Source of the DNA: a virus | DNA length: 64,000 nt | IMG/VR virus record: IMGVR_UViG_3300003937_000144 | Location: 30,020 to 94,019 of that record | Reading direction: 5' to 3' (one strand) | Shown here: positions 3,331 through 64,000 of the stretch, one piece after another | How positions within the stretch are numbered: position 1 is the first letter of the stretch | How the letters are laid out: each line of letters starts with the position of its first letter | Notes under the pieces: generated by a model | What the model saw: only the letters and a program-made list of their open reading frames with translations | Databases searched by the model: none | What the model was told of the DNA's origin: nothing | Translations under genes and position numbers: made by a program

Positions 3331-3911
3331 TAATATTGTTTCCTTGAGTCAGCCCATATAGCACCTTCACTAGCTTTCTTGAATGATGCTGTTTGTAAAA
3401 AAATTGCTATGCTCCATTCTGCCGAAGGAACTTTCATTATCTTTGAAGATACTTTCTTAGTCAGATAATGTTTAAAGCACGGTTTAAAGTATTTATAGTT
3501 CTTTGTTGCTTTTAATAAGTTATATGTAATTCTAAACTTAGTCATATCATTAAACTTTTGATTAGTTGCTACATCATTTAAATGGTCTAAGAAGATTGCA
3601 CGAACTTTAGGTGGTAAGTAATGTAAGTTAATACCATAGAAACCATCTTTCGCTGGGCCCACGACAATAGTCAAAGGGAATGTATCATAGTAAGGCAATG
3701 TTGCTTTAAGCTTTGGATCATATGTGTACATAACCATTTCACCAGCCTTGGCACTTTGTCTTGCTATTAATCTCTCATCCTTCAACACACTCTTACCTAA
3801 CGGCCCAAGCTTCTTCACATTCTTAGCAAACCAAACGTTTGCTTCTTTAGATCTTGCTGTTATGCCTTTACGAAAAGCTTCTGATTCTAACTTGTCAAAT
3901 AGACTAGCCAT
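3330..3911 (-). CDS. Conserved virion-associated protein of unknown role
   Basis: This protein of 193 residues has a core YYDTFPLTIVVGPAKDGFYG followed by NLHYLPPKVRAIFLDHL. I associate this pattern with a protein family found near head-completion and baseplate genes of many large myoviruses. The N-terminus is basic and helical (FRKGITARSKEANVWFAKN). There is no signal peptide or membrane segment. It sits between a small membrane protein, whose end it overlaps by 8 bases, and the gp54-like gene, whose start it touches, so the minus-strand genes form one transcription unit. A DNA-end protector (gp2-like) or a neck or tail completion role is possible, but I cannot assign one from sequence alone. 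Confidence 0.5.
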   Translation of the reverse strand: MASLFDKLESEAFRKGITARSKEANVWFAKNVKKLGPLGKSVLKDERLIARQSAKAGEMVMYTYDPKLKATLPYYDTFPLTIVVGPAKDGFYGINLHYLPPKVRAIFLDHLNDVATNQKFNDMTKFRITYNLLKATKNYKYFKPCFKHYLTKKVSSKIMKVPSAEWSIAIFLQTASFKKASEGAIWADSRKQY

Positions 3912-4095
3912 TAAACGTCTCCATTAATTGTGGTCCGAACACTACCATAATATATGCTATGATAGCCATGGCAGCAATACCTCCTAATAGCCATTTTATT
4001 TTAAAATCGTCGACCATCATTTTAAATCCTATTATTTCGTTCCCTAATATACGTAGGGATATTTCTAACTTACCGTCACTATCTTCTTCTGCCAT
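3904..4095 (-). CDS. Small single-span membrane protein
   Basis: This protein of 63 residues has an acidic N-terminus (MAEEDSDGK), an amphipathic stretch, and one clear membrane segment at about residues 35-54 (WLLGGIAAMAIIAYIMVVFG). A late promoter TATAAATA lies exactly five bases upstream of the ATG and overlaps the stop codon of gp4, so the gene has its own late promoter and probably a leaderless mRNA. The next gene overlaps its end. Small one-span proteins in phages may be holins or antiholins, or membrane components of assembly. Nothing here decides between these. Confidence 0.75.
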   Translation of the reverse strand: MAEEDSDGKLEISLRILGNEIIGFKMMVDDFKIKWLLGGIAAMAIIAYIMVVFGPQLMETFNG

Positions 4096-4100
4096 ACTTA

Positions 4101-4108
4101 TATTTATA
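4101..4108 (-). promoter_or_regulatory. T4-type late promoter TATAAATA
   Basis: A perfect late -10 element reads on the minus strand, five bases before the ATG at 4095. It contains the stop codon of gp4 (4106-4104). With T4 geometry (+1 five bases after the box) transcription would begin at the start codon. Confidence 0.8.
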
Positions 4109-4601
4109 CTCTTTTCTTAAGAGATTTCCATATTCTTTTGCCAGTCTTTGTTTTACTTGCTTTAAATCTCATAGTCATAGTTTTAATACCCATTGCTTCT
4201 AATTCATTCTCAGTCCATATTTGAAATTCATATCCACGTTCCTCACAAAACTTACGTGCATACTTCCACTTAGAAGTATTCTTCATATAGGTTAATGCCT
4301 CTGTTAACTTTTTTCTTTTAGGTGGCACGGTTTGAGATGATGGTTTGATCTCGACTAAAAGAGTACGGCCTGTATCTGTTCGTATAGTAAGATCCACAAA
4401 GTATCTGTGAGCCTTGTTATCGGTTGCACATACGTAACCTATAACAGTTTCTTCAGAATTCCACCACTTAACCCATGATGCTTTATCTAAATACCTAAAT
4501 GCATTGCGCTCCCATAAAGATCTATAATGTATATTATCTACATTACCTTTATACTTTGCTATATTTGTTGGTCTCCATGATCCAGAATATGTTTTTTTCA
4601 T
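4104..4601 (-). CDS. 4: T4 gp4-like head completion protein
   Basis: This is the T4 gene 4 head-completion family (T4 protein about 150 residues). The characteristic parts are YRSLWERNAFRYLDK near residue 27, WNSEETVIGYVCATDNKAHR, VDLTIRTD, LVEIKPSSQTVPPKR, YMKNTSKWKYARKFCEERG and FQIWTENEL. The D...EVK/EIK arrangement recalls restriction-endonuclease-like folds. In T4, gp4 acts after DNA packaging and before tail joining. I start at the ATG at 4601, giving MKKTYSGSWRPTN; a longer frame up to 4673 would run through both divergent late promoters and into the gp48 start and is rejected. A minus-strand TATAAATA lies five bases upstream of this ATG. Confidence 0.9.
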   Translation of the reverse strand: MKKTYSGSWRPTNIAKYKGNVDNIHYRSLWERNAFRYLDKASWVKWWNSEETVIGYVCATDNKAHRYFVDLTIRTDTGRTLLVEIKPSSQTVPPKRKKLTEALTYMKNTSKWKYARKFCEERGYEFQIWTENELEAMGIKTMTMRFKASKTKTGKRIWKSLKKRV

Positions 4602-54639: not shown

Positions 54640-55402
54640 AGATAGACTTAAGTGGGAACTAACTAAAACCCAAATAGCAGGTCATAGTATATGGTATGAC
54701 CAAGGATTAGATGCTAATGGTTTAACAGAATTCATGAATTCAATTGGTGAATGTGAATGCCCTGACCTATTCATGAACCCTAAGAATACACCTGAGATCT
54801 TTATAGTCACTGGTAAGAAGGATAAGCATGGTAAGAAGCTTGGCATGTTTGGTGATACTGAACTTGGTTGGCACTCTAATGGTAACTCAAGACACAACGT
54901 TGATAAAATATTAATTGCTTTATATTGCGTTGAAGAAGATGATAATACTTGTTTGTCTATATGTAATACAACTCGACCATTCCAGGCTTTAACAGATGAA
55001 CAACAAGAATACTATAGAGATATTACAATTAAACTCAAATTTAAAAATAATACTATATATAATTTAGAAGAAGGTGATCCAGAATTAGAATTCATGGAAG
55101 CTAGCAAAGGATCTATACGTAAATTAATAGGTAGGCATCCACATACTGGCCAAGAGTATTTCTATTTTCCATATCATTTTATAGAGAGAGTTTGGTATAA
55201 GAAAAAGAAAATTGACGGTAATAAACTTATACAAGAGTTGAAGCAGGTTATATTTAAATCACAATACCAAACACATCACATATTTAAAAAGGGCGATCTA
55301 TTATTAATGGATCAATTTACTTCGTTACATAGGAGGACTCCAGTGTATGACAATAATAGATTACTATGGAGAGTTGCCTGTGACTATAGGAAGATAATGT
55401 GA
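54611..55402 (+). CDS. TauD-like 2OG oxygenase with HxN site, copy 4
   Basis: I choose the TTG at 54611 (LTIQISTLPRDRL), with GGAGG at 54599-54603 seven bases upstream, exactly as in copy 3; a GTG at 54605 is possible too. The protein has 263 residues with H88-S-N90 in LGWHSNGNSRHN, GRHPHTGQEYFYFPYHF and LLLMDQFTSLHRRTP. It is the most divergent of the tandem set. The GTG start of the flavin reductase overlaps its stop codon. Confidence 0.75.
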   Translation: MTIQISTLPRDRLKWELTKTQIAGHSIWYDQGLDANGLTEFMNSIGECECPDLFMNPKNTPEIFIVTGKKDKHGKKLGMFGDTELGWHSNGNSRHNVDKILIALYCVEEDDNTCLSICNTTRPFQALTDEQQEYYRDITIKLKFKNNTIYNLEEGDPELEFMEASKGSIRKLIGRHPHTGQEYFYFPYHFIERVWYKKKKIDGNKLIQELKQVIFKSQYQTHHIFKKGDLLLMDQFTSLHRRTPVYDNNRLLWRVACDYRKIM

Positions 55403-56064
55403 AAAAAATAGTTGCTGTAGCATTTAGTTATGCAGAAAATTCTATGAACATGAGAGGCTTAACCCTCATGGATGAATTGTTATTTTTTGATGGCCAATAT
55501 GATATGAATGATTTTAATATGCCTCTTTGTAATTCAAATAAATCAGATGGAAATGTTCCAGAAGGTGTGAATAAATTCATAAAGGTTATGAGAGATGCTG
55601 ACATATTAGTGTTTGCTATACCTGAAGCTACAGGACATTATGCGGCTGCGTTCAAGAATGCAATGGATTGGTTAATATGTGAGTCTAAGTTTAATAGTGA
55701 TATTGCAGTTGATGGTGCATTTTATAATAAACCAGTATGGGTTGTAACATTCACTCCTGTGATTCCCGCGGTAACTCCGGGTGAAAGTTATGAGATAGGT
55801 GCTGGAGGCCGACACTTTGAAATGACAAGACACCTATTAAATGAGAAGATGGGTGGAGCTGTGCATCAAGAGATGTTTGTGTTTAATGATGGATGGCAAC
55901 ATTGCAGACCAGGAAATGTTGATTGGGTAAGAGATGCTTGTAATGAAATACTAAGAGCAATAGATTTTGATCCTGGTGAAAGGGCACCATCATATTCTAT
56001 GAAGGATAGACCAGTAAAGTGGCTTAAACGATACGAAGAGTGGGATGCTTCATGGAAGGAATAG
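55399..56064 (+). CDS. NAD(P)H-dependent FMN reductase-like flavoprotein
   Basis: This protein of 221 residues follows the flavodoxin-like FMN reductase plan. The first strand is KKIVAVAFSYAENSMNMRGL, then MRDADILVFAIPEATGHYAA and AFKNAMDWLICESK, the analogue of the P-E-Y-N-G ... LKNAIDW motif. FTPVIPAVTPGESYEIGAGG follows strand four. It could supply electrons or reduced flavin to radical-SAM or oxygenase partners. The start is GTG at 55399, overlapping the stop of the previous gene by four bases. Confidence 0.75.
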   Translation: MKKIVAVAFSYAENSMNMRGLTLMDELLFFDGQYDMNDFNMPLCNSNKSDGNVPEGVNKFIKVMRDADILVFAIPEATGHYAAAFKNAMDWLICESKFNSDIAVDGAFYNKPVWVVTFTPVIPAVTPGESYEIGAGGRHFEMTRHLLNEKMGGAVHQEMFVFNDGWQHCRPGNVDWVRDACNEILRAIDFDPGERAPSYSMKDRPVKWLKRYEEWDASWKE

Positions 56065-56630
56065 CCGAATACATTAATGTCGATTATAATAAAGAGTATC
56101 TAATACGAAAGCATAACGATGCGCGCGGTGCACATGGTAAAGAGTATATCGAATGTGGAACCGAATCTCACATCCTTAGAGATAACCCAGACTATTACAG
56201 ACAATGGGATCATATACTTACAATCATGTGTGGTGTTCATATAGGTATGTGCGAACATGGTACAGGTTTTAATTTAAATGGAACTCTAAAAGCCGGGGTA
56301 CCGCCCCATATAGATTTTGATGATAGAGAAGGTAATGGATTTAATTTATTATTACCTATGTTTGGTATAGCTAAGATTAATATATACGAAACCATACCTA
56401 GTCAATTAGAATTTAGACATGGCATGACCCATTGGAATATGTTACAAGATAAATATCCACCAAGAAAGATAGGTGAAATAGTTGTAGATAAGCCTGTCTT
56501 ATTAGATACAATGTACTTACATGATGTACAAGTAATCGATGCGCCTCGTGCAATATTTTGTGTTGCTTGGAGAGGTATAAATAAGACATATAATGAATTT
56601 AAAGACCATGCCGAAAAAACACTTACCTGA
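56052..56630 (+). CDS. Cupin-type Fe/2OG oxygenase-like protein
   Basis: From the ATG at 56052 the protein has 192 residues. H86-I-D88 in VPPHIDFDDREGNGFNLLLP and H157 with R166 in MYLHDVQVIDAPRAIFCVAW give a complete HxD...H...R set on a cupin-like core. The fold resembles the Asp/Asn hydroxylase group. The upstream GTG at 56040 would add four residues. It overlaps the flavin reductase by 13 bases and the methyltransferase by 38 bases. Confidence 0.65.
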   Translation: MEGIAEYINVDYNKEYLIRKHNDARGAHGKEYIECGTESHILRDNPDYYRQWDHILTIMCGVHIGMCEHGTGFNLNGTLKAGVPPHIDFDDREGNGFNLLLPMFGIAKINIYETIPSQLEFRHGMTHWNMLQDKYPPRKIGEIVVDKPVLLDTMYLHDVQVIDAPRAIFCVAWRGINKTYNEFKDHAEKTLT

Positions 56631-58032
56631 TCCAGAAAAGTATGAGCTAGGCGAGCCATATACCCATCTAGGAATACCATTCCCAAGGTTACCTGCTACC
56701 TTTGAAAAGAATTCAGTTCCATTAAAAGAAGATTACAAAATGAGATCTATGGATTACTTAGATACTCCTGAAGCTTATTCGTTATTTGAAAAGCAAGCTG
56801 ACCTTATAATTGAAAATGGTTGGAAGGGTATTATTGATGTTGGTTGTAGACATGGTCCAGTAGTTGATATATTAATGGATAAAGGATATACTGATTTCAA
56901 CTATATGGGATTTGATACATCTGCTCAACCTATTGAATATGCTCAAGAGACATGGCAAGAGTTTGATAATATAGAATATCGTGTTATGTCTTGGAATGAA
57001 TTTGCGCCAGCTGGTGCAAGCAAAGGTCATAAGCAGCTTGGTCAAAACAATAAGAAAGAAACTGATGAGGAATGGTGGTCTAGAGCCGGTGTTAAATTCA
57101 AAGTAGACTTCCATGTTGATGTTATGATATGGTCAGGCGTTTTATTATATGAACCAACATATCATTTATGGTTCTTTCATAATATGCATAATGCGTATGG
57201 TGCACAAAATGCAATTATACAAGAACCTTTAAAAGACCAAAGGCCAGAATGCTGGAGAGAAGATTTAGAATTAAATACTATTGAGCATAGACTTCATATG
57301 TATAAAACTAAATATTATGAATATGAATCTTGGGAATTTGATTTAGATATATTTAGTGGTAGAAGAATAATATCACGTGTTAAATTATGGCAGGATGGTG
57401 ATTCTAAATGGGAAGATTGGGTAGATACTCATGGTCAGCTAGCCGCTAATCCACACACTGAGATACTTCCATCAGGCTATAAAGTAATACCATATATATT
57501 TCGAGGTAAATTAAATTTTGAATTAAGCCAAAGGGATCAGACTTTATGTCAAGTAGCTTTAGAGAAAATGTTTAAAGAGAGACATAGTCATAGGTTAGCA
57601 GATAATTATAGCAGAGATAAATTGCATTTAGGCAAAATGTATATGTACAACTTTGTATTTGATGGTGATGAACCAGTCTTCTGCTCGGGTGTACAAAATG
57701 TTACTGATAAAGTTGTTAGAGTATTCTCTAGATACTTTGCTTTTGAAAAGTATAAGACAGATGGCACCACACTATTAGAGAAGAATGACAACTTTGAAGA
57801 ATTACAATATGCTATGCATTGGATCCGTGATAGAATTATATTTTGGAGTAGAGATAAATCTCCTAAGTTCTTTGAAAGGTTAAAAGTTAAAAATGAATTG
57901 TTTTCAGAGTGGACTGTACATCCTACAAAGATTAATATAATCTATCCTAATAATGAACAATATATATTTTATACACCAAAGGTTCCAGCTGAATGGTGGA
58001 AAAATGGTAACTATGATGGATTTTTTAAATGA
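56593..58032 (+). CDS. Two-domain methyltransferase-like protein
   Basis: This 479-residue protein has a class I SAM-binding motif near residue 80 (GIIDVGCRHGPVVDILMDKG, then YMGFDTSAQPIEYAQETW). VDVMIWSGVLLYEPTYHLWF fits motif IV of the catalytic domain. From about residue 300 a second part of unknown type follows (KMYMYNFVFDGDEPVFCSGV, ending with VPAEWWKNGNYDGFFK). An ATG at 56608 is an equally good start. It overlaps the next gene by four bases. The substrate is unknown. Confidence 0.65.
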   Translation: MNLKTMPKKHLPDPEKYELGEPYTHLGIPFPRLPATFEKNSVPLKEDYKMRSMDYLDTPEAYSLFEKQADLIIENGWKGIIDVGCRHGPVVDILMDKGYTDFNYMGFDTSAQPIEYAQETWQEFDNIEYRVMSWNEFAPAGASKGHKQLGQNNKKETDEEWWSRAGVKFKVDFHVDVMIWSGVLLYEPTYHLWFFHNMHNAYGAQNAIIQEPLKDQRPECWREDLELNTIEHRLHMYKTKYYEYESWEFDLDIFSGRRIISRVKLWQDGDSKWEDWVDTHGQLAANPHTEILPSGYKVIPYIFRGKLNFELSQRDQTLCQVALEKMFKERHSHRLADNYSRDKLHLGKMYMYNFVFDGDEPVFCSGVQNVTDKVVRVFSRYFAFEKYKTDGTTLLEKNDNFEELQYAMHWIRDRIIFWSRDKSPKFFERLKVKNELFSEWTVHPTKINIIYPNNEQYIFYTPKVPAEWWKNGNYDGFFK

Positions 58033-59090
58033 AGTTCTATGTTAACGGCACCCGTCGAGGGTTAGGCAAATATATCTATGATAGATTGAATGTAGTCGAG
58101 ACTCTTGAAGAATGTGATGTATTCATTAATTGTAAGCATGATGGATTCCTTCAGGTGGACTTATTATATAAAGCTTGTGAATTAGGCAAGAGAGTTATCA
58201 ACATAGGTTCATATGCATCTGACTGGATATTCCATCCACAACAAAAGAAATATACTTATGCTATTGAGAAGAAAGCATTAAGAGATGCTAACTCACAACT
58301 GTTTGATAATGGTTATAATACTACATGTTTAAACTTAGGTTATTTGGATAGTGAGAGTGTAGAACATATCACATCAAATAAGATGACACATAGATCTGTT
58401 GTAAATAATATTGAATGGATACTCACACATCCTCATCGTGTAAAAGAAATAACTATAACACCTAATGAATCAAAGAAAGAAAATAAGTACAATGACCAGG
58501 TCGTTAAAGAAATAGGAACTCTAGCATATGATGAACGTATAACAATATCAGATAACCTACGTGACTATTCAACCATGTATGCTAACTGTTATAAACAATT
58601 ACACCAGTTCGGTCAATATGATTTAGAAAAGGTTAGAGCTGAAGTAGCTGTGTTATTAGAGGCACATGAATTACATGATAATCAAATTATGTTACAATCA
58701 TTGGATGGTAAAGACTTCTATACTGGTATCACTCAAGTAAGTAAGATCCCTGAGGGTATAGTTGAGAATGATTTTGATAAGCTCAACGTTCATGAGGATT
58801 CAGAGATAGCTAGATTCATAAATGATTTAGGTATAACAAGGGCAAGATTACTTGTCTTACCTGAGAAAACTTGTTATACATTCCATTTTGATCCGACTTC
58901 ACGAATACATTTAGTGGTAAAAACAAATGAATGGGCCTTTATGGCTGATGAAAAGTGGAGATTATTCCATATGCCTGATGATGGTTATCCATGGTATGTT
59001 GACACTACATATCCACACACCGCAATTAACTCAGCACTTGAAGACCGCATACATATAATGGGTCGTGCACCGCAAAAACCTTATAAATAG
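58029..59090 (+). CDS. Fusion of SDR-like domain and Asp/Asn hydroxylase-like domain
   Basis: Residues 1-150 look like a short-chain dehydrogenase: YVNGTRRGLGKYIYDRL is the TGxxxGxG nucleotide loop in altered form, CDVFINCKHDG fits the NAG region, and Y77-AIE-K81 is the YxxxK catalytic pair. Residues 200-353 carry H286-F-D288, H330 and R340 (CYTFHFDPTSRIHLVV, then TTYPHTAINSALEDRIHIMG), a complete hydroxylase set. One chain could thus oxidise and hydroxylate the same substrate. It ends at the late promoter of the lipoprotein gene (the TAG is partly in the box). Confidence 0.65.
   Translation: MKFYVNGTRRGLGKYIYDRLNVVETLEECDVFINCKHDGFLQVDLLYKACELGKRVINIGSYASDWIFHPQQKKYTYAIEKKALRDANSQLFDNGYNTTCLNLGYLDSESVEHITSNKMTHRSVVNNIEWILTHPHRVKEITITPNESKKENKYNDQVVKEIGTLAYDERITISDNLRDYSTMYANCYKQLHQFGQYDLEKVRAEVAVLLEAHELHDNQIMLQSLDGKDFYTGITQVSKIPEGIVENDFDKLNVHEDSEIARFINDLGITRARLLVLPEKTCYTFHFDPTSRIHLVVKTNEWAFMADEKWRLFHMPDDGYPWYVDTTYPHTAINSALEDRIHIMGRAPQKPYK
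59082..59089 (+). promoter_or_regulatory. T4-type late promoter TATAAATA
   Basis: A perfect box overlapping the last codons of the SDR-hydroxylase gene, exactly five bases before the ATG at 59095. Confidence 0.85.
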
Positions 59091-59094
59091 AAAT

Positions 59095-59541
59095 ATGATT
59101 GAGAAAATACTAGCGGGGACTCTCGCACTTTCGGTAGGTGGATGTAGCATGTTAGGCGGTTTCAACGCACTAGATCCCAAAAACCTTATTAAGACAGCAG
59201 CAACAACTGGTGTCACATACGTAATAGCAGGCCCCTTAGCAGCCGCGGGCAATGCTGCAACATCTATAGCAGTTGATTCAGTTCTACCTGATGACAAACC
59301 TGCAATAGGTGATATTGAGGCTGGAAACGAAGAACAATTGAGGGCATATATGTTTCAAAACCTAACACAAACAGTACTATACGCGGTAATCGGATTCTTA
59401 ATATTTACTAATGTTGTTGGACCATGGGCTGCACAGCGTAGAGCAAAGAGAAAAGCTGAGCAAGTAGCAGAAGACCAACGTCGTAAAGATAAATATGACG
59501 CAATGAAAGCTGAATTAACTGCGCGTCGAAATAAAGAATAG
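59095..59541 (+). CDS. Lipoprotein-like membrane protein, possible unimolecular spanin
   Basis: The protein has 148 residues from the ATG at 59095. It starts MIEKILAGTLALSVGGCSML, a short signal-peptide-like stretch with a possible lipidation Cys at C17 (V-G-G-C is a weak lipobox). A second strong membrane segment lies at residues 93-113 (TVLYAVIGFLIFTNVVGPWA) and a charged, helical tail follows (RRAKRKAEQVAEDQRRKDKY). A lipid-anchored N-terminus plus a C-terminal inner-membrane span is the layout of u-spanins, which fuse inner and outer membranes at lysis. The tail is long for that class, so another two-membrane or inner-membrane protein is possible. An upstream TTG frame start is rejected because a late promoter occupies it. 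Confidence 0.6.
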   Translation: MIEKILAGTLALSVGGCSMLGGFNALDPKNLIKTAATTGVTYVIAGPLAAAGNAATSIAVDSVLPDDKPAIGDIEAGNEEQLRAYMFQNLTQTVLYAVIGFLIFTNVVGPWAAQRRAKRKAEQVAEDQRRKDKYDAMKAELTARRNKE

Positions 59542-59549
59542 TATAAATA
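59542..59549 (+). promoter_or_regulatory. T4-type late promoter TATAAATA
   Basis: A perfect box immediately after the lipoprotein stop codon. The next gene starts 109 bases downstream, the longest leader in the window. Confidence 0.75.
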
Positions 59550-59554
59550 TACTT

Positions 59555-59658
59555 GTAAGTAAGCGAGAATATCGAAATAGTCAGTAACACGGAGAGACAC
59601 TCCAGATCGATCGGTTATGATTGCAATCTTACGTTTTTTTTAACTTAAGGAGAAGTAT
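59555..59658 (+). promoter_or_regulatory. Long 5' leader of the nitroreductase gene
   Basis: About 100 bases between the likely transcript start and the ATG. It holds a small hairpin GGAG (59591-59594) / CTCC (59600-59603), two palindromes (GATCGATC and GATTGCAATC), a run of eight or more T and an AAGGAG ribosome-binding site just before the start. I could not match it to a riboswitch class. Other genes here have almost no leader, so this one may carry regulation. Confidence 0.4.
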
Positions 59659-60357
59659 ATGTTTAGACAAATGATTAAGAAGTCTATCCAAAAATCTCAG
59701 CATTGCAATCGCAACTGGGATTTAACACAAGAGATGCCTCAGGCAGATATCGATCTTATGATTGAAGCTGCTACACAGTGTCCTACTAAGCAAAACCTTA
59801 ACCACTATAAAACCCACGTAATAACAGACCGTGCTATAATCGAACAGATTGAAGCTGCGACTGCTATTCCTGATTTTGGTTCTGAAGACAATGACTTCAG
59901 AGGCTATGATGGCGTTCAGGGTTATGATGGAGGTTTTGGTCCAACTAACTCACAACTATCTGCTCATGCAGTCTTCGCGTTTGTTGAAGATGAGCCATGG
60001 CAAATGGGTGAGGAAGTTCGTGAGCCTTCAGAGTCTACTAAGACTATGCATGGCAAAACAGGTGACGGCAAATTGGCTGAGTCTTATAAAGAAGACAGAG
60101 ACCAAGCTGTTGGTATTGCTGCAGGATATTTAAACCTAGTATCAACTATGATGGGTTATTCTACTGGTTGTTGCAAGTGTTTTCATATGGACAAAGTTAA
60201 CAAAGCATTGGGAGTACCGGAAGGTAAGAACACTGTATTGTTAATGGGTATTGGTATTGCTGATCCTAGTCGTCAAAGACAGGAACATCATTCTGATGCA
60301 AGCTTTAGCTTCGGTTCTCATAAGAATATGAGAAAGTTCGAAACTCACTACGCTTAA
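59659..60357 (+). CDS. Nitroreductase-family flavoprotein
   Basis: This protein of 232 residues belongs to the nitroreductase family: IEAATQCPTKQNLNHYKTHV in the N-terminal part replaces the usual PSSxNxQP, VGIAAGYLNLVSTMMGYSTG is the central helix region and LLMGIGIADPSRQRQEH the late strand and loop. It likely binds FMN and reduces a small molecule with NAD(P)H. From memory, members are found in marine T4-like phages. An AAGGAG site lies six bases before the ATG, and a terminator follows the gene, so it forms a one-gene transcription unit. Confidence 0.82.
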   Translation: MFRQMIKKSIQKSQHCNRNWDLTQEMPQADIDLMIEAATQCPTKQNLNHYKTHVITDRAIIEQIEAATAIPDFGSEDNDFRGYDGVQGYDGGFGPTNSQLSAHAVFAFVEDEPWQMGEEVREPSESTKTMHGKTGDGKLAESYKEDRDQAVGIAAGYLNLVSTMMGYSTGCCKCFHMDKVNKALGVPEGKNTVLLMGIGIADPSRQRQEHHSDASFSFGSHKNMRKFETHYA

Positions 60358-61238: not shown

Positions 61239-61377
61239 AGGCATTCCACCCCATAGTAAATTTCCGTGTAGTTGTGGACGTTCACCTACTGGTAGATGTT
61301 GTGGCTGGCATAAGCTAACAGAAGAAGAATATATGATTAAGTTTAAAGAATTTAAAGAGCTCGATAAATTTCAATAA
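61222..61377 (+). CDS. Small SEC-C-like zinc-binding protein, 51 residues
   Basis: A GTG start at 61222 follows a stop codon in the same frame and the frame runs to TAA at 61375. The protein contains FPCSCGRSPTGRCCGWHKLT: C-x-C, then C-C-G-W-H. That is close to the SEC-C motif (CxC ... CC/CH), which binds zinc in SecA and many small proteins. It ends in a charged helix (EEEYMIKFKEFKELDKFQ). Its last 26 bases overlap the end of the cyclase gene on the other strand. No upstream ribosome-binding site is obvious; coupling to the methyltransferase is likely. Confidence 0.6.
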   Translation: MQKKIKGIPPHSKFPCSCGRSPTGRCCGWHKLTEEEYMIKFKEFKELDKFQ

Positions 61378-63190
61378 TATCTTCCTTACCCTTCACTTTA
61401 ATATCACCAATCTTTCTAGAGTTATGGAACATATCAGGCGGAAGCTGGTCTCTTGTCATTGAGGAATATATAGTTGGATATTCTGAATAATCTCCCCTAC
61501 CTGCTGTTGCTTCTAGTCTTGCTGCTAGATTAACTGCATCACCTATCACACTAAAGTCAAATCGAGTTGAGCTACCCATATTACCGATAATTGCTGGACC
61601 AGAATTCACACCTGTACCAACATTGATATCAGGTAAGCCTCTATCCTTATATCGTTGTTTTAGTTCTAATGTCTTTGCTTCTATTTCAACAGCAGACTTA
61701 ACAGCCATCTCAGCATGATTAGGCATATCAAGTGGTGCACCGAACACTGCCATAATACAGTCACCCATAAACTTATCGACCATACCACCATTAGCCAATA
61801 TAATATTAGTCATCTCATCTAAGAATTCATTGACAAGAACTACTAACCCTTCAGGGTCATCATTGTTCTTATAGAATTCTGATATAGGTGTGAACCCTAT
61901 AATGTCCATAAACAAATAAGACATATCCTTTCTAGCACCACCTAACTTAAGTAGATCAGGATTCTTTTGTAGTTCTTTGACTTGCCTTGGATCTAAGTAG
62001 TGTTCGAACTGTTTCTTGATCTGTTGCTTCTGCCTAAACTCTAATATGAACCTATTAAATGTGGCATGGAATCCTACGATAAAGAATGTCAACAAGGCCC
62101 ACGTGATATCTACAAGAACTAATTGTGTACTAAACATATATTGGAAGTAATACAAGGCCCCTGCAAATGTACCTATAAGTGATAGACCAATAAACCAGTA
62201 TGGCAAAAATCTTGTTATAAGAATGATAGCAATACCCAATACAAGACCCGCAAGCAGTTCTATTAAAGGGTCATACCGCTTTATTGTTTCACCATCTAGG
62301 ATTGTTTGGAGAGTCTGTGCAGATATAACATAGTCATATTGTTCACCTACTGGTGTTGCAACAACTCCACTTAATCCCTCTGCTGTCATAGCTATAATCA
62401 CTGTTGTACCCGCAAGCGGCGTGAAGTCTTCAGACGCAGCACTCATAGTTTTAAATTCTTTATTCCATCTTACCCAAACTCTAGCTCTTGTATCTGTATT
62501 AATTGTAGCATAAGCAGGAACTCGCATAGCACTAATGCCAGCTTCGTCAGCTTTTACTTGATACGATGGGTCACCAACCGCAACTCGTATTGTTTCTATT
62601 GCCATGTTAGGATATACTTCCTCGCCTATCTTCATAAGCAATGGCACTCGTCTTACAACACCATCAATTTCAGGAGCGGTATTAATAACACCAACACCTC
62701 CTGCACATTCTGCAAGTTTAGGTAATGGACCAACCATACCATTCCACTCAAATAGATATGGTAATGGATCACCTATCTTTGCCACACCTCTCGGTACTGG
62801 ATTAGATGTTCTCTTTTGTGCTGTACCAACCTGAGCAATGACTACGCCATAACCTAATGTTTCACAAAATACTTCATCACCACCAAACCTATCCTCTTCA
62901 CTAAATAATATAGGCATAACAATAATACCTGTTTGGGCATTTCTTAATTGTAGTATGAGGTTAGCAAGTATATCACGGTCCCACGGCCATTGACCATGTT
63001 CTTCGATTGCTGCTTCATCGATGGTAACTATTGTTACTGCTTCAGAAGGAGTCTTTACTTCATTCTGTAGTACATAGTCAAATGATTTGAGTCTAAGTAT
63101 TTCTTTGACCCACGGATCTTGAAGACCGATATAGGTTAATGCTATAAGGGTAACAAATGCAATGGTCCAATGTGAGAAGATTTTCTTCAT
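61352..63190 (-). CDS. CHASE2-adenylate cyclase (class III)
   Basis: The protein has 612 residues in three parts. A first membrane helix (about 8-24) leads to a CHASE2-type sensor domain outside the inner membrane (to about residue 305: TIVTIDEAAIEEHGQWPWDR, AGGVGVINTAPEIDGVVRR). Three membrane helices follow (about 308-385), then a cytoplasmic class III cyclase domain. The cyclase is complete: D429 (YLFMDIIGF) and D477 (FMGDCIMAVFG) bind metal, K473 and D545 fit ATP selectivity, N554 and R558 the transition state (VIGDAVNLAARL). It should make cAMP if folded. A late promoter (TATAAATA, five bases, ATG) shows it belongs to the phage programme and is not a stray host gene. Confidence 0.88.
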   Translation of the reverse strand: MKKIFSHWTIAFVTLIALTYIGLQDPWVKEILRLKSFDYVLQNEVKTPSEAVTIVTIDEAAIEEHGQWPWDRDILANLILQLRNAQTGIIVMPILFSEEDRFGGDEVFCETLGYGVVIAQVGTAQKRTSNPVPRGVAKIGDPLPYLFEWNGMVGPLPKLAECAGGVGVINTAPEIDGVVRRVPLLMKIGEEVYPNMAIETIRVAVGDPSYQVKADEAGISAMRVPAYATINTDTRARVWVRWNKEFKTMSAASEDFTPLAGTTVIIAMTAEGLSGVVATPVGEQYDYVISAQTLQTILDGETIKRYDPLIELLAGLVLGIAIILITRFLPYWFIGLSLIGTFAGALYYFQYMFSTQLVLVDITWALLTFFIVGFHATFNRFILEFRQKQQIKKQFEHYLDPRQVKELQKNPDLLKLGGARKDMSYLFMDIIGFTPISEFYKNNDDPEGLVVLVNEFLDEMTNIILANGGMVDKFMGDCIMAVFGAPLDMPNHAEMAVKSAVEIEAKTLELKQRYKDRGLPDINVGTGVNSGPAIIGNMGSSTRFDFSVIGDAVNLAARLEATAGRGDYSEYPTIYSSMTRDQLPPDMFHNSRKIGDIKVKGKEDIIEIYRAL

Positions 63191-63195
63191 AAAGC

Positions 63196-63203
63196 TATTT
63201 ATA
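63196..63203 (-). promoter_or_regulatory. T4-type late promoter TATAAATA for the cyclase
   Basis: A perfect box on the minus strand, five bases upstream of the cyclase ATG at 63190 and one base below the stop codon of the curlin-repeat gene. Confidence 0.85.
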
Positions 63204-63518
63204 TTAATTCTGTGTTACTGTTGCTGAACAAGTAGTGTTAGTACAAATTTGTGATAAGTAATAATTTTGGTCTGAACTACTATCTTGTGTCAAGGTTATT
63301 GTGGTGGGATTACCACTTAAAATTAAAGTACCATTATGGTCACCTGAACCGTCTTGGGTTATATCTAATGTGTGACTATCTGTTAAAGTAATATCCATAA
63401 ACATATCGCCTGTTCCTTTTTGGTCTACAGTAACATTATTACTACCATCAACATCTAAAAATAATATCTTATCTCCTGTTTCTGTTTGGTCAAGGTCCAT
63501 AACAAGCAAAATGTTCAC
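63204..63518 (-). pseudogene. Curlin-repeat protein, C-terminal part in a shifted frame
   Basis: This frame continues the repeats of the upstream fragment: VMDLDQTETGDKILFLDVDG, then NNVTVDQKGTGDMFMDI and LDITQDGSGDHNGTLIL. It ends with an unusual two-Cys tail (SQICTNTTCSATVTQN), which may form a disulfide. There is no convincing start codon or ribosome-binding site. Removing one T from the TTTT run (minus strand) at 63511-63508 fuses it to the upstream frame with an unbroken repeat pattern. Boundaries of the shared part are approximate. Confidence 0.7.
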
Positions 63519-64000
63519 CTGTATTTGACAAATGAGTTTGATTTAAATTGAGAGTGTTCGAGGCCCCTGTAATATCGATTAATGCACTTTGATTTAAGTT
63601 CTGTGTAATATCAATATCATTTGAATTACCATCAACATCTATTCCTACAATATTATTATTACCAGTTTGTGTTATAGCTAATTCATTATTATCACCTGTG
63701 ATTTCGCCGGCAGATGTTAAATCTGAACCTGCAACCAAATTGTCTTCACCATCTTGTGTTATAGCTATTTCAACACCGCTACCGCTTTGAGTTATATAGA
63801 TATAATTATTATTTTGGGTGGTGGCTTGTGTGGATGTAACTAATGTTTGTTGAGTAGAAGTTATTCCTGATGTTGGTGTCGATCTAGTATTAAGTGTACT
63901 AGTTATTACATCAGCTATTAAAGCATTCATTAATTCTTTATTGTCATTTGTATAATAAGATGATTGAGAAGCATAGTTTATATCTGTAATTATAATTACT
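63490..64000 (-). CDS. Curlin-repeat protein, N-terminal part; start beyond window
   Basis: The frame is open to the window edge (64000) upstream of the in-frame ATG at 63930, so the gene probably starts outside. The visible part has a Thr/Ser/Gln-rich stretch (TSTQQTLVTSTQATTQNNN) and then curlin-type repeats: YIYITQSGSGVEIAITQDGE, ELAITQTGNNNIVGIDVDGN and NDIDITQNLNQS. The repeated I-T-Q-x-G-x-x-N pattern is that of CsgA/CsgB amyloid subunits. In this frame it ends in an unrelated EHFACYGP. Curli-type genes have, as I recall, been noted in SAR11-type myophages. The protein could coat cells or virions or promote attachment. Confidence 0.75.
   Translation of the reverse strand, partial: VIIITDINYASQSSYYTNDNKELMNALIADVITSTLNTRSTPTSGITSTQQTLVTSTQATTQNNNYIYITQSGSGVEIAITQDGEDNLVAGSDLTSAGEITGDNNELAITQTGNNNIVGIDVDGNSNDIDITQNLNQSALIDITGASNTLNLNQTHLSNTGEHFACYGP

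Follow-up and report, generated by a model that had tools for sequence, protein, structure and literature searches.

A predicted late CHASE2 adenylyl cyclase of a T4-like phage, companion of curli and FecR genes and candidate sensor of a surface fibre

The stretch of DNA that was analysed (64,000 nucleotides, hereafter the window) is the final 64 kb of an IMG/VR virus record of 94,019 bases and ends on the right where the contig itself ends (G000:C1:94019). The following features were located close to that end, all on the minus strand:

61352..63190 (-), CHASE2 adenylyl cyclase gene, 612 aa, final gene of a curli/FecR module (reading frame, domains, relatives, AlphaFold model)
61358..61936 (-), predicted class III cyclase catalytic domain, residues 419-611, with D429, K473, D477, S547, N554 and R558 (PF00211, PDB alignments, Foldseek, viral alignment)
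62006..62269 (-), predicted membrane helices 2-4 and cytoplasmic extension, residues 308-395 (hydropathy and AlphaFold model)
62291..63112 (-), predicted CHASE2 periplasmic sensor, residues 27-300, Pfam match 16-324 (PF05226, model, co-variation with FecR)
63119..63172 (-), predicted membrane helix 1, residues 7-24 (AlphaFold model)
63196..63203 (-), T4-type late promoter TATAAATA, ending 5 nt before the ATG (motif position and spacing enrichment)
63204..63999 (-), curlin-repeat gene, orthologue of HTVC008M gp018 (PF07012, E=1.6e-9; alignment with L057, L006 and HTVC008M)

The cyclase gene is a single uninterrupted frame of 612 codons (open reading frame check) on a contig of a marine T4-like phage that also encodes homologues of gp6, gp53, UvsX and the primase-helicase together with baseplate PHROGs, i.e. 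T4-type genes with relatives in the Kyanoviridae; Gp23 and terminase gave no match on this partial contig. The adjacent (second) curlin gene is split into the frames 63490-63999 and 63204-63518 by a deletion of 26 nt relative to L057, L006 and HTVC008M (junction 63504/63505), which may be real or may represent an assembly collapse within the repeats. It is the only gene of the curli module left before the contig end and, since the window ends where the contig ends, the remaining genes of the operon lie outside the record. On the other side of the cyclase gene, the plus strand holds a short frame of 45 codons with PCSCGRSPTGRCCGWHKLTEEEY (61240-61377, perhaps encoding a small metal-binding protein), the end of which overlaps the cyclase 3' end, and to the left of it an island (55399-60357, plus strand) of FMN reductase, Asp/Asn hydroxylase-like, methyltransferase-like and nitroreductase genes.

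The complete CHASE2 cyclase that an earlier sequence-only reading of this DNA had put forward was borne out by Pfam matches over the frame to CHASE2 (PF05226, E=1.5e-37) and Guanylate_cyc (PF00211, E=3.3e-16), both well above the curated cut-offs. The AlphaFold model, built from 28 homologues (mean pLDDT 87.8), contains four membrane helices and not the three of that reading: residues 7-24 ahead of CHASE2 and then 308-328, 331-356 and 363-395 (membrane part to ~385), so that the CHASE2 domain is modelled between one N-terminal and three subsequent membrane helices. Aligned with its relatives (83 viral proteins), the window cyclase was indeed seen to have both metal-binding Asp residues (D429 and D477), Lys473 and the transition-state pair N554/R558. 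Of the ATP-selecting Lys/Asp pair that had been claimed, the Lys stands, and the second purine-selecting position is Ser547; the Asp that was read before is probably that of 'FDFSV', two residues ahead of this Ser. The second purine-selecting residue is Ser in 77 of the 78 viral relatives with a readable site versus Thr in 54 of 57 cellular hits, and as judged from the alignment the Lys473/Ser547 pair agrees with the Lys plus Asp, Thr or Ser of adenylyl rather than guanylyl cyclases. The cyclase domain superposes (Foldseek and PDB alignments) on those of CyaB (3r5g, TM 0.88) and CyaC (1wc1, TM 0.85), class IIIb enzymes that have the catalytic fold and the K..D and N..R residues in common with the phage protein and differ from it in their regulatory domains and in the residue at the purine site (Thr, where the phage cyclase has Ser). 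Where the site is readable, 77 of 78 viral relatives retain the full D-D-K-S-N-R set; phage Melnitz is the exception, with Asp at the purine site and Ser in place of the transition-state Asn, and activity may therefore not be conserved everywhere. On balance, and jointly with the whole interpretation developed below, we read the protein as a predicted transmembrane class III adenylyl cyclase that is class IIIb-like (Lys/Ser).

The late promoter that had been noticed five bases before the gene was confirmed as well. When [AC]TAAATA was sought in the 60 bases preceding gene starts, a spacing of exactly 5 nt was found to be over-represented, with 6 of 16 occurrences on the window contig (binomial P ~3e-7) and 11 of 24 in HTVC008M (binomial P ~2e-13), csgF and the cyclase gene being among the latter. 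Structural genes of HTVC008M are enriched for the motif upstream (15/43 vs 9/119), and a Shine-Dalgarno sequence was found for 2 of 10 genes with the 5-nt box spacing versus 6 of 6 with a distant box. Of the 45 viral cyclase relatives with at least 45% identity, 18 retain the late motif with this 5-nt spacing, and csgF is preceded by an equal 5-nt late promoter in several to many relatives. In T4, transcription starts roughly one helical turn downstream of the late box (PMC2988020); accordingly, a box that ends 5 nt before the ATG should place the start of the RNA at or near the A of this codon, and the cyclase mRNA is predicted to be leaderless and late. The same motif exactly 5 nt before an ATG also occurs at window positions 3904-4601 (minus strand) and 33298, 51738 and 59095 (plus strand), all candidates for leaderless late mRNAs. 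In a number of distant relatives (L063, L064, L070, L076, L079, L080 and L081), TATAACACTTT abuts the cyclase ATG (TATAACAC being 3 nt before the ATG) and replaces TATAAATA; this is possibly a diverged late promoter.

The nearest named relative is gp019 of Pelagibacter phage HTVC008M (YP_007517885, adenylate/guanylyl cyclase), which is 66% identical over the full length (sensor 76%, catalytic half 61%), has equal domains and late-promoter spacing and directly follows a curlin gene that is intact in that phage. The cyclases of four Melnitz isolates are 49% identical; gp104 of the Methylophilales phage Melnitz lies in a module as found with the relatives of the window cyclase, its sensor is 63% and its catalytic half 34% identical, and it differs further in the purine-site and transition-state residues mentioned above (Asp/Ser) and in a C-terminal extension. 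In HTVC008M and Melnitz, csgF, csgG, curlin, FecR and second curlin genes precede the cyclase gene, and these genes neighbour it in dozens of contigs, which substantiates the link to curlin that had been suspected. The supposed rarity of receptor cyclases in phages did not hold: at least 304 IMG/VR stretches encode relatives, and such genes had been reported already. In a paper published in 2022 (PMC9599517), the cyclase and FecR are reported to accompany the pelagiphage curli genes (a 'partner-AMG' T8SS module), with the conserved order CsgF, CsgG, curlin, FecR, second curlin and adenylate cyclase, of which the present record contains the last two genes only; an alphaproteobacterial origin is given there and a role in curli regulation is proposed. 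The curli genes are also discussed in PMC7029224 and PMC9004378, where the cyclase is not mentioned. The pairing of a phage CHASE2 cyclase with curli is already known, and the window gene adds another member. The FecR tail, the type-I-secretion-like variant, the mosaic of sensor and catalytic halves and the 5-nt promoter spacing are not described in the passages of PMC9599517 that were consulted.

A survey for linked CHASE2 cyclase and curlin genes had been suggested by the sequence-only reading. We distinguished 142 viral cyclase loci and scored the context of the 44 with at least 5.5 kb upstream; a fibre module was present in all 44, being of the curli type in 37 and type-I-secretion-like in 7. 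The latter type consists of an outer-membrane efflux protein, an ABC-type membrane protein (~250 aa and thus probably without the ATPase part), HlyD and an adhesin-like protein of large size; on contigs that extend far enough, this last protein was seen to contain a FecR domain. For instance, such a set lies beside the CHASE2 cyclase of uncultivated phages at L085:231-7508, L190:513-7631 and L192:19-8001, with adhesin-like proteins of 1200-1550 aa and a FecR domain in several of them. The variant sits in other large phages, like that of the 148-kb contig G036, which encodes a DNA polymerase, tail fibres and a ribonucleotide reductase with 73% identity to the HTVC008M enzyme. A search of the phage collection gave no match for the efflux protein, and we found no literature on it. 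A T4-type capsid and terminase were not found in the phages with this variant, the viral nature of which rests on IMG/VR, the DNA polymerase, the ribonucleotide reductase and the tail-fibre PHROGs. At one end of contig G036 (L236:38-3197) there are GroEL- and DnaK-looking frames, either viral cargo or a joined host piece. Phage-like cyclase modules were also seen on bacterially binned contigs (L084, L085 (MAG MED657) and L086 (MAG TMED10)), which look like phage contigs binned into MAGs.

A further finding concerned FecR. At the curli loci it is a separate protein with a signal-peptide-like start, and in all 21 aligned proteins of this kind the motif [ILV]x[ILV]xQ was found at the C-terminus, followed by at most 2 residues; a second copy lies 21-22 residues upstream in 9 of the 21. 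The Gln of the terminal motif is the sole invariant residue in the last ~90 of FecR, and among the 180 ORFs of HTVC008M this type of ending occurs in CsgB and FecR only. The C-terminal end of FecR resembles a curlin strand at the level of sequence, and the Pfam curlin model gave no match in the tail. The FecR model has a pLDDT of 71, with ~87 for the core and 59-79, i.e. modest confidence, for the C-terminal part; its best match in the PDB is 5ix9, 'Cell surface anchoring domain' (TM 0.76 by target, rmsd 1.0, 32% identity), followed by the PupR cell-surface signalling domain 6ovk. We take 5ix9 to be the domain that retains a very large ice adhesin secreted by the type I route; if so, the match agrees with FecR being fused to the adhesin in the type-I-secretion-like module.

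The association of FecR with CHASE2 extends to cellular genomes: in Alphaproteobacteria, FecR was found within 5 kb of 49 of 134 CHASE2 genes vs ~1.2 expected. In Burkholderia, an operon of a LysM-FecR protein and a CHASE2 histidine kinase (BiofilmReg) has been tied to biofilm formation, with no known ligand for CHASE2 (PMC5192318). It resembles the phage module in that a periplasmic FecR is encoded beside a CHASE2 receptor and in its surface-growth phenotype, but it is cellular, its output is a histidine kinase and it is without curli genes.

We considered whether the sensor type follows the secretion system. This idea was weakly supported, the distant curli sensors being 0.34-0.36 and the type-I-variant sensors 0.30-0.36 identical to the window sensor, and co-variation with FecR was therefore tested instead, as the correlation of pairwise identities across 26 complete loci. 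The identity of the CHASE2 half correlated with that of FecR with r 0.94 and with that of CsgG with r 0.86 (partial correlation with FecR 0.74 given CsgG), and the identity of the catalytic half correlated with that of FecR with r 0.54. Linkage and gene order can explain part of this co-variation, because FecR lies nearer to the 5' (sensor) half than csgG does. A sensor of 63-64% identity is paired with a catalytic half of 34-35% in Melnitz, and one of 34-36% with a catalytic half of 83-85% in L045-L047, which indicates that the two halves recombine.

On balance we favour the reading in which the cyclase gene is the late, leaderless and terminal gene of a pelagimyophage curli (type VIII secretion) module, and its product a FecR-sensing cyclase that signals the fibre to the host. 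The phage would produce CsgF, CsgG and the curlins, so that a surface fibre would be built late in infection, and the cyclase gene would have a late T4-type promoter of its own that yields a leaderless mRNA. The periplasmic FecR, with its curlin-like C-terminal strand, would bind the cell-proximal end of the fibre and engage CHASE2 across the periplasm, reporting fibre assembly; the three helices after CHASE2 would pass the signal to the catalytic dimer, and cAMP would rise in the infected cell after fibre assembly and act on host cyclic-nucleotide-binding proteins. Sensing through CHASE2, as suggested before, is plausible. What the sequences show is the gene with its domains and active site, the promoter, the operon as it occurs in relatives, the selection, the linkage to FecR and the co-variation with it, and we infer FecR as the ligand, fibre assembly as the signal, cAMP as the product in vivo and a host effector. 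No cNMP-binding protein (PF00027) was found in the seven phage records searched, and the receiver should therefore be a host protein. Each of the 32 genomes from the order to which MAG MED657 belongs, a streamlined alphaproteobacterial order that may not be that of the host, encodes such proteins, and in several cases the gene lies beside a cellular CHASE2 cyclase gene. More tentatively, and with some doubt, the system may constitute a fibre-assembly checkpoint, in which FecR is both the periplasmic fibre anchor (separate in the curli phages, fused to the adhesin in the type-I-like variant) and the CHASE2 ligand, and the cyclase signals the assembled fibre by cAMP.

It seems unlikely that the cyclase instead controls curli gene expression, as proposed in PMC9599517, or lysis timing, for which CsgGF has been proposed (PMC9004378), with CHASE2 responding to the membrane or pore state and not to FecR. 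In line with such a role, the cyclase gene is located at the end of the operon and has its late promoter type in common with csgF. Nevertheless, no cNMP-binding regulator was found in the seven phage records, and we know of no need of T4-type late promoters for cAMP. The absence of CsgD from phages, as stated in PMC9599517, likewise argues against it.

Somewhat less probable still, and close to the sequence-only reading, is a constitutive rise of host cAMP late in infection that redirects carbon or energy metabolism, with CHASE2 sensing a small external molecule and the linkage to FecR and curli being incidental. The intact catalytic site, the late promoter and the cyclic-nucleotide-binding proteins in the genomes of one streamlined alphaproteobacterial order would suit such a role, but the fibre module at 44 of 44 loci, the co-variation of the sensor, stronger with FecR than with the catalytic half, and the adjacency of FecR and CHASE2 in cellular genomes favour a role as signalling partner to a surface fibre.

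We consider it very improbable that the cyclase gene is a functionless passenger or is decaying, as might be supposed from the frameshifted curlin gene next to it in the window contig and from the changed catalytic residues of Melnitz, since the catalytic set is complete in nearly all viral proteins with a readable site and a dN/dS of 0.06-0.14 versus eight relatives indicates purifying selection on the gene. That host DNA was joined to the phage contig during assembly, conceivable for a gene within 3 kb of the contig end, is practically excluded by the orthologues in an equal neighbourhood of the complete genomes of the cultured phages HTVC008M and Melnitz, by L004 (140 kb) and L066 (128 kb), which hold both the cyclase gene and a T4-type major capsid gene, and by the baseplate and replication proteins encoded on the window contig.

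The favoured reading, a cyclase that senses FecR and signals the fibre to the host, bears on two matters. CHASE2 domains are sensors of wide occurrence in bacteria with no ligand established so far, and it is not settled what curli genes are for in the phages of abundant marine bacteria. The CHASE2 cyclase and its FecR-linked fibre module make up a small system in which both questions can be tested. Given late and apparently leaderless expression, the signal falls in the second half of infection. If the more tentative checkpoint version is true, FecR would be a general ligand of CHASE2 in bacteria as well.
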